DNA of 64,000 nt from NCBI GenBank assembly GCA_023488885.1, contig JAMDDH010000034.1, forward strand, positions 1-64,000, in the 5' to 3' direction. Positions 26,027 through 62,682 of the stretch are shown here, piece by piece. The DNA comes from Thermoplasmatota archaeon (GTDB taxonomy: Archaea > Thermoplasmatota > Thermoplasmata > Thermoplasmatales > Thermoplasmataceae). The notes beneath the pieces are model-generated. The model was given only the letters and a program-made list of their open reading frames with translations, ran no database searches and was not told the DNA's origin. Each line of letters starts with the position of its first letter. Position 1 is the first letter of the stretch. The position numbers and the translations under genes were made by a program.

Positions 26027-26155
26027 TTATCCCCTCAATATTTTATCCGTCTCGACAAACATGCTCTTCCCTTTCAGGTTCCATATTGCAAGCAGTGACA
26101 AGATGTACTGGTAATTCTGTGATTCTTCAAGAATCTTCTTCAGGTTGATACTCCG
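26027..26155 (-). pseudogene. C-terminal gene fragment cut by transposase scar
   Basis: A minus-strand frame of about 40 codons (IRSINLKKILEE... to KILRG) ends in TAA at 26027-26029. It is coding-like but stops abruptly at the point where the plus-strand transposase remnant begins, so it is probably the tail of a gene whose 5' part was lost. I do not recognise the family. Confidence 0.35.
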
Positions 26156-26421
26156 TATATCAGGATGACGACACCCTGAGAAGATACGCATTTGTATCAT
26201 TCATATCGCTGATCGCCTACTACAGGATACTAAAGCTCCTGAAGAACAGGAAAATCAACAGCAGGATGAGCGTGAAGGACGCATTGCTGCAGTTATCAAA
26301 GATTTATCTTGCTGATGTAGGTGACCGAACGATAATGGCGGAAATCCCAAAAAAGGTCAGGGAACCTGCGGAAACCCTTGACCTAAAACCGGAGCTGTTC
26401 CCTGAAAAGATTCCGAGTTAA
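26150..26421 (+). pseudogene. IS4/IS1634-like transposase C-terminal remnant, copy 2
   Basis: About 90 codons of a transposase tail (DDTLRRYAFVSFISL to PEKIPS) without start or catalytic domain. It is open to its natural stop, unlike the copy near the left edge of the window. Both copies begin at about the same point of the protein, which suggests a shared truncated form spread by recombination or by a non-autonomous element. It forms the left border of the island described next. Confidence 0.7.
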
Positions 26422-26587
26422 GGATTAAAATAAGTCAGTAATCCCAAAATATCAATTCTATTCATTTTGACTAGCAAGATACTCTAATGTAGTATACGAG
26501 GGAAACAAAATTTCATCAAATCAGAACAATTTCCAACTATTTATATATTAAGAAAATTATATATACTTATGAACAGATAATCTCATT

Positions 26588-26956
26588 ATGGAGACTTTGA
26601 GACAATTCGGATATCCCCCGGCAGTTTCCAAACCACGGATGCTGTATTACTTAATAGCTCTAGCAATGGCAGCCCTTTCTTTGGTCTTGATTGCCCAGTT
26701 TTTGGGTTTTAATCCATTTGGAAGCTCCATAGTCGTAGCTTACTCTAAGGGTTGGATTAGCCTCCAATCTGCACAATTGAGTCTAGAGACCCTTTTTGGA
26801 AGTAGTGTACTTGCTACTGCAATTCTTAGCCAAGTGACTGTGGGTAGTATCTTGGGTGATGCAGCTGCCGCTGCTTTGGTGGACACAACCTTGCTTGCTT
26901 GGTTGGGGCCATGGGCTCTAGTATTTCTTGCGGCAGTCATTGTAACTGCAATTTAA
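26588..26956 (+). CDS. Small hydrophobic protein, candidate precursor of a membrane-active peptide
   Basis: 122 residues. A 17-residue basic N-terminus and a membrane helix (18-40) precede a GFNPFGSS turn, followed by a roughly 75-residue, almost uncharged alanine/leucine-rich region (one K, one E, two D; SILGDAAAAAL, GPWALVFLAAV) with no arginine. This leader-plus-hydrophobic-core layout is like circular bacteriocin precursors, especially the acidic gassericin/acidocin B subgroup (similarity of character only, recalled). A strong TATA stretch (TTATATATAC, about 26553-26562) is set for a leaderless start. The next gene, 52 bases on, has SpoIIM-like and signal-peptidase parts. Could also be an ordinary small membrane protein. 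Confidence 0.65.
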   Translation: METLRQFGYPPAVSKPRMLYYLIALAMAALSLVLIAQFLGFNPFGSSIVVAYSKGWISLQSAQLSLETLFGSSVLATAILSQVTVGSILGDAAAAALVDTTLLAWLGPWALVFLAAVIVTAI

Positions 26957-27008
26957 ACGAGTTAAAGAGATAAATTTATTTCACTTCCCTTTTTGTGATT
27001 TCGGTGCT

Positions 27009-28661
27009 GTGAATCAATTGAATGAATCTAAAATATCTGATTTAACTGTATTTCTAGCAAAATACTTCGTGATTATTTTCTTTGTCTTGATAATAATAGA
27101 CATTCTTAGGGTATTTCCCTTGACCTTAAAATCGCCGCTCTTTAGATACTCTGCTATTGGATTCTCCATGTATTCTTTGTTTTTTCTAAATTATTCATGC
27201 AGCTCGCTTATCAAAAGGAAATCTATATTGTTAAAGAAAATAGCTTTGGACTCGGCGTTGGATGTCACATTTATTATTCCCATAATTCTGATAATCAGAA
27301 ATAGGAGAACAAGTGGTAAATTATTGGGGGCTGATTCAGTGTTTTTCCTTGGAGGATCACTGTTTCTGATCATATTTCTATCATTTTCTATTTTTTCTGA
27401 AATCGTGTATAGTATCCCAGTCCTGTTGAATTCAATAGATGGTAATTCCGGTTTCATTGTCCCTGGTAGTAGAATGAGTTCGTATCCACTTTTAATAATC
27501 ACACATAACATGATTTTTCTATCGGAGATCTTTTTAGGTTCACTTTTCTTTCTTCTGCCAACATTTGGAGTGGTTCTTTTTGACACTCTGGTCACAGGGT
27601 CAATAACCGTTTATCTCATTAGAGTTGGACAAGAAAATATAATTTTGCCCCAATTATTGCTAGAATTGCTAGGAACTTGTATTGCCACTGCCACTTCTTT
27701 TGCCATATTTCATACCTTTTTCACATCTATGTCAAAAAAGATAAGGAACTCGGAGTTTTTGCAAATGCAATCTTACTCAATAAAACTTATAATCCTCGGG
27801 TTAGCGCTTTCAATTTATGCTTTTTTGTTAGCATGGCCAATAGAGTCGGCTTTGTTCTCTGCAAAAGGTTTCAACAGCCTTTGGTATAGAACAGTATACC
27901 TCTTCGACGTAATTACAATTATAATTTACGCTGGATTCTTATATGACATTCTAAAAAGGAAAGTATTCCCACTTCAACAGATCATACTTCCGTCCCTATC
28001 ATCTGGTATAATTTTGTTTGTAGCATTGGGCGGCGGCTCAGCAGCCATTGAGAACTCGATTCCGTTACTAGGGTTACTGGGAGCCGCTTCTCTGTTGTAT
28101 CCTTTGTTGGAACTTAGAAAGTTACTGACAGGCGACAAAACCCCCAAAAGGTTGAATGCATTTTTGAAAGAATTCGATTGCTTCATTGTCTCTTCGCAGG
28201 GGCGTAGTATGTATCCCACAATAACTGGCAGTGACTACGTTCTATGTTTAAAAATGAATGAAGAAATTAAATTAAGCCCTGGAGACATAATTACATATGA
28301 ATTACCTCTTTATTATTCTCCATTATCCTATGGGAGGTTTGTTACGCATAGGATAGTTGACTTAAATGAAATTGAAATAAGAACAAGAGGAGACAATCTT
28401 CAAAAGTTGGACCCTCCAATTAAATATTACAAAGTTCATGGGATTGCAATCGCAAAGTGTGATCGCTCTTTCAAAATATTTGAAACTCTAACTCAGAGAC
28501 AAGAATTAACTCAGATATTGACGAGATTAGAATCTTTTATATGGGCGGGGGAAAATAAAACAGATACGGGCAAAATAAGTGTAAAAATAAGATCATTGCT
28601 AAGCATATTTTTTGTTCTCGTTACAGCCATTGCTCTGCCATTTCTTTTCCTAATGGCTTGA
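27009..28661 (+). CDS. Polytopic SpoIIM/DUF95-like membrane protein fused to a type I signal peptidase domain
   Basis: 550 residues. Residues 1-375 hold about nine or ten membrane helices; around 155-235 the pattern ITHN, then FLGSLFFLLPTFGVVLFDTLVTG and LLELLGTCIATATSF follows the SpoIIM/DUF95 plan (HN near 166, E near 219). Residues 390-480 form an S26B archaeal/ER-type signal peptidase with Ser400 in GRSMYPTI, PGDIITYELP, His447 in VTHRIV, and Asp462/Asp468 in TRGDNLQKLD: all catalytic residues are there. A last helix anchors the C-terminus. Starts with GTG. It probably processes or exports the hydrophobic protein encoded just upstream. A+T-rich relative to neighbours and bounded by IS scars. 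SpoIIM assignment is moderate; the peptidase assignment is strong. Confidence 0.8.
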   Translation: MNQLNESKISDLTVFLAKYFVIIFFVLIIIDILRVFPLTLKSPLFRYSAIGFSMYSLFFLNYSCSSLIKRKSILLKKIALDSALDVTFIIPIILIIRNRRTSGKLLGADSVFFLGGSLFLIIFLSFSIFSEIVYSIPVLLNSIDGNSGFIVPGSRMSSYPLLIITHNMIFLSEIFLGSLFFLLPTFGVVLFDTLVTGSITVYLIRVGQENIILPQLLLELLGTCIATATSFAIFHTFFTSMSKKIRNSEFLQMQSYSIKLIILGLALSIYAFLLAWPIESALFSAKGFNSLWYRTVYLFDVITIIIYAGFLYDILKRKVFPLQQIILPSLSSGIILFVALGGGSAAIENSIPLLGLLGAASLLYPLLELRKLLTGDKTPKRLNAFLKEFDCFIVSSQGRSMYPTITGSDYVLCLKMNEEIKLSPGDIITYELPLYYSPLSYGRFVTHRIVDLNEIEIRTRGDNLQKLDPPIKYYKVHGIAIAKCDRSFKIFETLTQRQELTQILTRLESFIWAGENKTDTGKISVKIRSLLSIFFVLVTAIALPFLFLMA

Positions 28662-28679: not shown

Positions 28680-28995
28680 AATCCAGCGAGAATGCTGCCG
28701 GTAGAGTAGAATGAAGGAGTGGTTACCCTCTCCTTCAAACCCTCGTCGAACGCAGCAGGCGGAGTTACCGCACTACGCTCACCGACGAGCTTCTTCGTAA
28801 GGCATTATAGCGTTTGTAAATGTTCTGTGGAGGCGGTGAAGGCAGCTTCAATCCAAGCAGTTCCAGATCCTTATATTTTCCTGTATGCTCTTTCTGTTTC
28901 CACCTGCTGTGCATCATTCCAAGACGCATGTCCCCGTATTCCCATGTGCGGGCAAACGACTGCCTGGGACAGTATAATCTGACATTGCACATTAG
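28680..28995 (-). pseudogene. IS200/IS605-type tnpB C-terminal remnant
   Basis: Minus-strand pieces in shifted frames: a FARTWEYGDMRLGMMHSRWK stretch, then PPPQNIYKRY, then LVGERSAVTPPA and DEGLKERVTTPSF. The NIY-R and VGER-type tail followed by proline-rich residues is typical of the OrfB/TnpB C-terminus. No start, no catalytic domain and at least one frameshift, so inactive. It forms the right border of the 26588-28661 island. Confidence 0.45.
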
Positions 28996-29227
28996 AGACA
29001 TAAGGCTGACCATGGACGACGAGAAAATATTAAAGGAGACCCATGAATAATTTTGTCCCAAAGCGCTCGGTATCCAAGAATCTCTCCTGAATGCTGGAAA
29101 CTGAACATTTATGTCTGGAAATTACCTATGAATTTTTCGAATTCCGGTAAAGAAACTAAAATATATGGACATATGCGATGTATCTATCACCTGCAACGGG
29201 ACATTATCGGTCCAGGCACTGTTTCGC

Positions 29228-60825: not shown

Positions 60826-62682
60826 GACCTGAATAGCGACGGGTGTGCCACCTACAGTTTCAGATTACTGGTAGCCTGTATGTAAAAATGTTATGCTTAC
60901 CGGGATTTCTCATCAAACAGTTTGGGAAAACCTATCTTCCTCAGTATTTCAGTGGAGGCAGGCATGAGGTTGAGATACCATATCCTGTGCTCTTTCCCGA
61001 ACCTGATCTCCATCCGCTCAACCCTTGACAGTGAATCAAGAAGCTTCTGCGATGTTTCCCAGGGATCCCTGTCACCGCTCTCCCTCAGGAAATATACGAG
61101 AGCAGCGATGAGTCTGTACGCGGTGACCATGACGAATACATATGCCCTGACTCTCCTCTCCAGCCTGTGCCTCACAGGAACGATCTCCTCCTGTGTCTTC
61201 ATTGTGCGGAATACCTTCTCAACGAAATCCTTCTCCAGGTACATGTTGACAATCTCCGATGCGGATAACGATGGATCTGTACACAATATTGCAGATTTGC
61301 CGTCCAGCTTCTCCGAGGCGTTTATCGCCTGCGAATGATATCTCCATTCAATCCGTTTTCCGCCTTTCCTGTTTATCCTGGCCATTACATACTGTTTCCA
61401 TTCACCGATAATGCGGGATATTTCCGCATGTATCTTCGATTCGTCCCAGTCCATGCATCTCCCTGACAGATCGTCGATCTCTTTCCCTATCCTTGCAAGT
61501 TCAGAATTCCGTTCCTCCCGATCATTGAGCGATTTGAGGGGATTCACATATACTGCCACGCTTCTCTTCTTTCCGTACAGATTTCCCTGAACAAGTGCTG
61601 CATAAACGTTGGCTATCTTCGTTCTCCGCACAAGGTTCTGCGGTTTCTCCAATATCTCCGTGTCCATGATGATCTTTCTGGCCTGCTTCACGCTCCTGGG
61701 TATTCCCGAGATCAGGCTCCATCCTGCCAGTTCAACCTCCTCCACGTTCTTCGCCGATATGTTCCCGCGATCCCATATTATGGTGCCGGGTGAATTATCA
61801 TCCCTCGGTCCGGGAAGAGCCGCAAGGAGGTTCCTCACAGTCGTCGATCCTGATCTCGAACCCCCGAATACCGCATGGTATTCGGGCTGGTAGTCCTCCT
61901 TCGATGCCATCAGGGCGATGCTGATCTGCCTCCTGTTGAGGTGGCCGGGATTGTAGCCGAATTCGGCGAGAGGGCATGAAGTGCCGAAGAATAATACCGT
62001 GGTGAGATCATATGCGACATGATCCTTTTTCTTCAGTGGATGTTTCCTCCGCCATTCCATGAATATCTCCCTGTCCATCTCCCCGCTGAGATCCTTCAGC
62101 TCCTGCGTCGTACCATCGTCGAAGCATATGTTGTCAAGGGAGTCCAGGAACAGATCCTTGGACCACTTCTCTTCGACGATGCCTGTCAATCTGGGAATGT
62201 CCGTTGTCTTTACCCATGATTCGAGCTGAGTTGCACTCTCGGGATCGATGACACGGTTGATCGCCCATGCTGTCAGCACTTTCCCAGGAGATATGGATGA
62301 TTTTCCGGGGCTCATTCTGTCAATTATACCGGGAATGTTGAGATCCTGTGCAAGCGCCCAGAGAAGATCGACGTCGCCGGCCCTTGTGGAACCCGTTGGT
62401 TTAACCTTGTCCAGTGTTTTCACGGGCGGCCTGATCGTGTTATCAACCTCTTCGACGCCAAGGTACCTGATGAACTGGCTCTTAACCTTTCCGTCCACCC
62501 TTGTGTTCCTGTATTCGGCACGGTATACGCGGTTGCCCCGCTTATGCCTCTTTATTGCCATTATAGGTGTAATAACACCTACACACTTAAAAACTTATTC
62601 ATTCAAAAACCAAGGAAAATGCAATGTTACGGTTCAAATTCAAAATTGTAGGTGGCAGATGATGGCGCTGTTCAGGTCATGA
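60822..62682 (-). mobile_element. IS1634/IS4-like insertion sequence, apparently complete
   Basis: About 1.86 kb. Outer ends read TCATGACCTGAA on the left and its exact complement on the right; inside, TGCCACCTACA is shared after a short divergent stretch, giving an imperfect terminal repeat of about 36 bases. One long transposase frame fills the element. No clean target duplication is visible (CTTTCT versus CTTTTT). Undamaged frame and ends suggest recent arrival. Confidence 0.75.
60897..62561 (-). CDS. IS1634-like DDE transposase
   Basis: 554 residues. N-terminal KRHKRGNRVYRAEYRN segment and GVEEVD; catalytic aspartates in VAYDLTTVLFFG and IIWDRGNIS; glutamate in the C-terminal MYLEKDFVEKVFRTMKTQEEI, the family's Y-(2)-R/K-(3)-E...K helix. 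Inserted in a set of small minus-strand genes. It is distant from the two tail scars at 171 and 26150, which come from a related but different element. Confidence 0.85.
   Translation of the reverse strand: MAIKRHKRGNRVYRAEYRNTRVDGKVKSQFIRYLGVEEVDNTIRPPVKTLDKVKPTGSTRAGDVDLLWALAQDLNIPGIIDRMSPGKSSISPGKVLTAWAINRVIDPESATQLESWVKTTDIPRLTGIVEEKWSKDLFLDSLDNICFDDGTTQELKDLSGEMDREIFMEWRRKHPLKKKDHVAYDLTTVLFFGTSCPLAEFGYNPGHLNRRQISIALMASKEDYQPEYHAVFGGSRSGSTTVRNLLAALPGPRDDNSPGTIIWDRGNISAKNVEEVELAGWSLISGIPRSVKQARKIIMDTEILEKPQNLVRRTKIANVYAALVQGNLYGKKRSVAVYVNPLKSLNDREERNSELARIGKEIDDLSGRCMDWDESKIHAEISRIIGEWKQYVMARINRKGGKRIEWRYHSQAINASEKLDGKSAILCTDPSLSASEIVNMYLEKDFVEKVFRTMKTQEEIVPVRHRLERRVRAYVFVMVTAYRLIAALVYFLRESGDRDPWETSQKLLDSLSRVERMEIRFGKEHRIWYLNLMPASTEILRKIGFPKLFDEKSR

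Follow-up and report, generated by a model that had tools for sequence, protein, structure and literature searches.

A hydrophobic precursor gene paired with a SpoIIM-signal peptidase fusion in a Thermoplasmatota order: a candidate bacteriocin-like peptide system

The locus and its two products

The window analyzed here, a 64,000-nucleotide stretch of DNA from a Thermoplasmatota archaeon, carries two genes on the same strand, a small one encoding 122 residues and, 52 bases downstream, a large one encoding 550 residues. Both frames and the gap between them are present as a first-pass annotation of this DNA had given them. The features of the locus, in order of position, are as follows.

26126..26426, plus strand: transposase 3' remnant, with copies of 72-80% identity at other places in the genome
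26540..26549, plus strand: TATA-box-like stretch upstream of the precursor gene, noted by eye only
26588..26956, plus strand: small hydrophobic precursor gene, 122 aa, ATG start
26588..26728, plus strand: putative leader, residues 1-47, with a basic N-terminus (K15, R17), a 17-residue hydrophobic helix, and a GSS site
26729..26953, plus strand: putative core, 75 residues (Ile48-Ile122), placed from the relatives' alignment and AF2
27009..28661, plus strand: membrane protein of 550 aa with fused SpoIIM-like and S26B signal peptidase domains, GTG start
27009..27338, plus strand: N-terminal membrane region, residues 1-110, from hhalign against RDD-SpoIIM
27339..27863, plus strand: SpoIIM/DUF95-like domain, about residues 111-285, from profile-profile comparison
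28161..28493, plus strand: S26B peptidase domain, residues 385-495, with Ser400, His447, Asp462, and Asp468
28569..28658, plus strand: C-terminal membrane anchor, residues 521-550, from predicted secondary structure
28957..29064, unstranded: repeat fragment, with copies of 98% identity on two other contigs of this genome, C54 and C21

The pair is A+T-rich, with 33-40% GC against 44-50% in its surroundings, and fragments repeated in the genome lie on both sides, the upstream one reading as the 3' end of a transposase. Both the base composition and the flanking insertion sequence scars had been described in the first-pass annotation. By eye, his and leu-type biosynthesis genes surround the cassette, and a 554-aa open reading frame elsewhere in the window (60897-62561, minus strand) reads like an IS transposase. 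Horizontal transfer, argued from an 82%-identical copy in another genus, was considered and dropped, a his gene region in that genome being also 85% identical.

The small protein reads, from its sequence, as a signal-anchor leader followed by a 75-aa core with hydrophobic termini. Leaders in all eight precursors carry 3-5 basic residues and then a 17-residue helix with GRAVY >2.1. The predicted cleavage site, picked by eye and by pattern, has small residues at -3 and -1, with Asn at -3 in three of the eight; in the window precursor the putative cut lies at the GSS site, which provides small residues at both positions. The core behind it is almost uncharged, as first described, with 1 basic and 3 acidic residues and a GRAVY of 1.36. 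Cores are 75 aa long in seven of the eight precursors and 77 aa in L016. Their first residue is Ile or Val, and the last, which falls at one alignment column in all eight, is Ala, Ile, or Leu. Core identity exceeds leader identity in each pair compared (for example, 83% vs 46%), and dN/dS is below 1 for these cores wherever dS could be estimated. An AF2 model of the window precursor, weak overall (pLDDT 62), places the leader helix at residues 16-38 and, at low confidence, about five helices in the core. Pfam, NCBIfam, and PDB sequence searches returned nothing usable for the small protein and no match to a known subunit family, so an ordinary subunit of another complex, one of three outcomes that would have undone the first-pass reading, was not found.

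Several comparisons give good support to a description of the large protein as a fusion of SpoIIM-like and S26B domains, with a membrane region before them and a C-terminal anchor after. A first Pfam/NCBIfam scan yielded a signal-peptidase match alone, and a weak one. The archaeal signal peptidase I model TIGR02228 matches 11 of the 13 fusion-protein relatives (best E 5.1e-18), SEC11 structures match the S26B domain (E 7e-7), and the Ser-His-Asp catalytic residues lie within S26 boxes. The peptidase residues named in the first-pass annotation, Ser400, His447, Asp462, and Asp468, are all present and are invariant in 13 of 13 aligned relatives.

The proposed SpoIIM similarity also held up on profile comparison. 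When a profile built from the 13-member alignment of fusion proteins is compared with RDD-SpoIIM proteins by hhalign, the SpoIIM-like domain aligns with a probability of 95.5% (E 1.5e-8, score 70.7). In controls, 37 unrelated membrane families, a set that left aside two clusters holding S26 domains, score at most 23.8, and reversed profiles score 15-16. Profile-profile alignment with ordinary SpoIIM proteins of the same order extends across the full domain (E 2.1e-4). Membership of the SpoIIM superfamily (PF01944) is indicated by this similarity and by motifs in register between the fusion and RDD-SpoIIM proteins (HN/NN, ILPQ..LE/ILPQ..PE, and AWPIE/GALIE), with PF01944 and direct HMMER searches of the large protein staying below the Pfam cut-off. 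From about residue 67, the fusion aligns with the stretch immediately before SpoIIM in RDD-SpoIIM proteins. Asn167, Gly177, Pro214, Glu219, Ala275, and Glu279 are invariant in the domain among the 13 relatives; of the HN...E pattern first noticed there, Asn167 and Glu219 stand, whereas residue 166 varies among His, Arg, and Thr. The large gene has a dN/dS of ~0.24 against the 82%-identical copy, indicating purifying selection. Its AF2 model is weak (pLDDT 70), and Foldseek comparison of both low-confidence models with the PDB gave no significant match, only weak signal-peptidase hits. Elsewhere in the window genome, the sole SpoIIM match detectable with PF01944 is L001 (G000:C30:37876-38289), a 169-aa frame just above the cut-off.

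Pairing, distribution, and co-divergence

Precursor and fusion form a conserved two-gene module of acid-loving archaea, found only in one Thermoplasmatota order among the genomes searched. Each of the eight intact small genes found in 117 genomes of the order immediately precedes a large gene and shares its strand, at a spacing that ranges from ~55 bp to a slight overlap, and a profile search of these genomes found no intact small gene away from a large one. Co-occurrence in other genomes, put forward as a check in the first-pass annotation, is therefore observed, at eight loci including the window. Full-length fusion relatives are confined to the order, matches elsewhere in the phylum covering mainly the peptidase domain, and scans of viral contigs found no relatives of the module. 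At 13 loci, no third conserved gene is present in the flanking 7 kb, or in what is left of the contig where that is shorter, only transposase fragments and frame artefacts; nor is an ABC transporter, exporter, or immunity gene conserved around the module at these loci, in agreement with what had been seen in the window.

Variants of the arrangement occur. A second, truncated fusion copy of 265 aa, comprising the SpoIIM end and the S26 part, lies near the intact module of L030 (9917-10714, plus strand), and L044 and L045 hold shorter S26 proteins of 327 aa similar to it. Genome G067 has two diverged precursor-fusion modules (L029 and L036). In other families of the phylum, L104-L118 contain S26 peptidase domains, several within open frames of 390-580 aa.

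The peptidase domain resembles the archaeal/eukaryotic S26B signal peptidase of the Sec11 type in its Ser-His-Asp site and surrounding boxes. Unlike that enzyme, it follows a large membrane region containing SpoIIM in one polypeptide and is linked to one substrate-like gene. Relatives of the fusion protein occur in 19 of the 117 genomes of the order, a patchy distribution that argues against a housekeeping role. PF00717 finds only the fusion protein in the window genome, but because it finds none in two related genomes it is too blunt an instrument for deciding between a dedicated and a housekeeping peptidase.

Pairwise identities of the small and large proteins are strongly correlated (r=0.934), and the true pairing is the best of 40,320 permutations, a result that shared cassette history alone could produce. 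Tight pairing and co-divergence would also look identical if the small protein were a permanent hydrophobic subunit of the large one, with the S26 domain acting elsewhere, for example in a membrane-stress or secretion-quality device. Three genomes with the large gene but not the small one are consistent with such an arrangement, as is a core that is conserved and not diversified. It is nonetheless considered unlikely, given the leader/core layout of the small protein, in which conservation changes near the small-residue site, the retention of a full S26B site in the large protein, and the patchiness of the distribution; the precursors of an analogous M48-SpoIIM module, described below, further show a pattern typical of cargo.

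The cases of loss are asymmetric. Decayed remnants of the small gene precede an intact large gene in L034 and L040, and in L038 the large gene is intact and the small gene is not seen. Retention of the large gene without the small one, and never the reverse, would follow if the large protein had a protective function as well. Loss of this kind, like the mobile-element scars at the locus, would equally suit an addiction-like pair, in which the small protein acts as a membrane toxin on its own producer and the large protein neutralizes it by proteolysis. The leader, however, has a signal of the export type, and SpoIIM proteins as a family are linked with the production and export of cyclized peptides (PMC8659200, PMC7132975), which makes an addiction-like pair distinctly improbable.

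A parallel module with an M48 peptidase

A second kind of SpoIIM-containing locus in the same order provides the strongest contextual support for a precursor-peptidase relationship. Nearly every RDD-SpoIIM gene examined has just before it a gene for a membrane peptidase with an HExxH-type motif, and the two such peptidases tested with Pfam both belong to M48 (PF01435 down to 2.6e-21). Upstream of the peptidase gene, most RDD-SpoIIM loci encode a hydrophobic precursor of 157-182 aa. The full set of precursor, HExxH peptidase, and RDD-SpoIIM is found at L079-L088, L172, L173, and L175. The window's own genome has this module as well (L172, contig C19:205-2213), where the RDD-SpoIIM gene is truncated close to the end of the contig. 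L081 and L173 each have two copies of a pair made up of precursor and peptidase.

The two modules occur in the same order and genome and share a homologous SpoIIM domain, an adjoining peptidase, and a precursor encoded directly upstream. They differ in that the M48 metallopeptidase is encoded by a separate gene, the conserved leader is longer (~85 aa), and the cores, of 73-96 aa, are hypervariable. Within a genus, M48-type leaders are 83-92% identical and the cores just 24-32%. As judged from these sequences, conserved leaders joined to hypervariable cores are the pattern of a diversifying secreted peptide. The conservation of the S26-type cores departs from this pattern and counts against a bacteriocin-like reading of the S26-type module. 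Profile comparison of the two core types was not significant and did not rise consistently above reversed controls; a YFTxGH-like motif common to both was seen by eye and, given that result, is not claimed. Taken together, the two modules suggest that hydrophobic precursors in this lineage are accompanied by a SpoIIM domain and a dedicated peptidase, encoded by separate genes in one module and fused in the other.

Relation to circular bacteriocins and proposed mechanism

Circular bacteriocin systems are among the closest known ones, and the first-pass annotation had already likened the pair to them. That likeness stands for the DUF95-like/peptidase fusion beside a hydrophobic precursor and is not borne out by the core, which matches no circular bacteriocin model. 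The clusters of AS-48, carnocyclin A, and gassericin A likewise encode a hydrophobic helical precursor with a leader (the helices being low-confidence predictions in the archaeal protein) and an adjoining SpoIIM/DUF95 membrane protein, recognized here by profile-profile comparison. Their cores, of 58-70 aa, end in a hydrophobic residue, as does the core here. In charge and hydropathy the archaeal core resembles subgroup II circular bacteriocins, and its GRAVY, charge, and Ile...Ala termini recall gassericin A and butyrivibriocin AR10. Unlike the bacterial clusters, the archaeal module is without an ABC transporter or a separate immunity gene, has a Sec-type leader, and includes a peptidase, fused to SpoIIM.

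The core also has no detectable sequence similarity to circular bacteriocins. The window core does not match the Bacteriocin_IId or BacteriocIIc_cy models, and profile comparison of the S26-type cores with AS-48-type and gassericin-type peptides gave no significant match and no consistent excess over reversed controls. Of the known sequences used in this comparison, three are exact against the PDB, and seven of the other eight are recognized by Pfam models, with leucocyclicin Q below the curated cut-off and lactocyclicin Q without a match. By analogy, the module may work like a circular bacteriocin module, yet it is not filed as one because it has no transporter and no core similarity. SpoIIM has been described as a class-defining partner of circular bacteriocins (PMC13289728), and loss of the DUF95 protein from the leucocyclicin Q cluster causes the mature circular peptide to accumulate in the cell (PMC7132975). 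Leader removal and ring closure are called a longstanding question in these systems, in a paper that names neither a peptidase for the leader nor a cyclase as identified and mentions M48 peptidases in two clusters (PMC8659200).

The favored explanation, by a modest measure the probable one, is that the two genes make up a minimal bacteriocin-like peptide system, in which the precursor's own signal directs its export and the fused peptidase cleaves it. The leader would act as a Sec/SRP signal anchor, inserted with its N-terminus inside, and no ABC exporter would therefore be needed. The S26B domain of the neighboring protein would then cut the leader behind the small-residue site at the outer face of the membrane; the active site of S26B enzymes normally faces outward. 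Cleavage of the small protein by this domain, like the export route, is inferred from sequence features. The SpoIIM-like domain would retain the greasy core, help it to fold, or let it go, and it may shield the producing cell, an immunity role that, along with a membrane-active (antimicrobial) role for the peptide, belongs to the inferred part of the scheme. Finally, the core could be joined head to tail. Such cyclization is only possible, and is suggested by a core that ends exactly at a hydrophobic residue without a tail, like circular bacteriocins.

A linear product overlaps with this explanation and is a serious possibility, if somewhat short of an even chance. The S26 domain would mature a secreted or membrane-inserted peptide, antimicrobial or signaling, that is never cyclized. 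An S26 cut requires no ring closure and would not by itself activate a free C-terminus for it, and the module contains no ligase or ATP-dependent enzyme. On the other hand, the invariant C-terminal column, hydrophobic termini, and SpoIIM association are traits of head-to-tail cyclized bacteriocins (PMC8659200). The fullest version of the favored scheme, a new archaeal class of ribosomal head-to-tail cyclized membrane peptides, with one SpoIIM-S26 protein to cleave the leader, handle the peptide, and protect the cell that makes it, is put forward tentatively and is rather doubtful.

The pairing of a signal-peptidase-like enzyme with a small hydrophobic protein is also found in TraF-TrbC and TrhF-TrhA. 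A SpoIIM domain is not known to be part of either system. In addition, the secretion machinery is absent around the module: the type IV secretion system that accompanies VirB2/TrbC-type pilins was not found in the module neighborhoods, and no conjugation gene is conserved there. TraF, a signal peptidase homologue, is the proposed cyclizing enzyme of the pilin TrbC, and the pilin TrhA is cyclic; pilins of this type shed a C-terminal tail on cyclization (PMC11722321), whereas the archaeal precursors have none. Core length is similar, and the precedent exists, but a system in which an S26-type enzyme cuts and cyclizes a VirB2-like pilin is highly improbable at this locus.

If a cyclized-peptide class of this kind does exist, the module and its M48-SpoIIM sister would show that dedicated leader peptidases partner SpoIIM proteins, and would point to the maturation step still lacking from the general picture of circular bacteriocins. 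Such systems may be overlooked by standard mining: a study of the Thermoplasmatales genome 'E-plasma' that used antiSMASH and BACTIBASE reported no bacteriocin loci (PMC10354927). Within one archaeal order, SpoIIM beside a hydrophobic precursor is associated with either of two unrelated peptidase types, S26B and M48, the former in the same polypeptide. The fusion and its precursor offer a direct candidate for the leader-cutting enzyme, in an enzyme-substrate pair compact enough for expression and testing.
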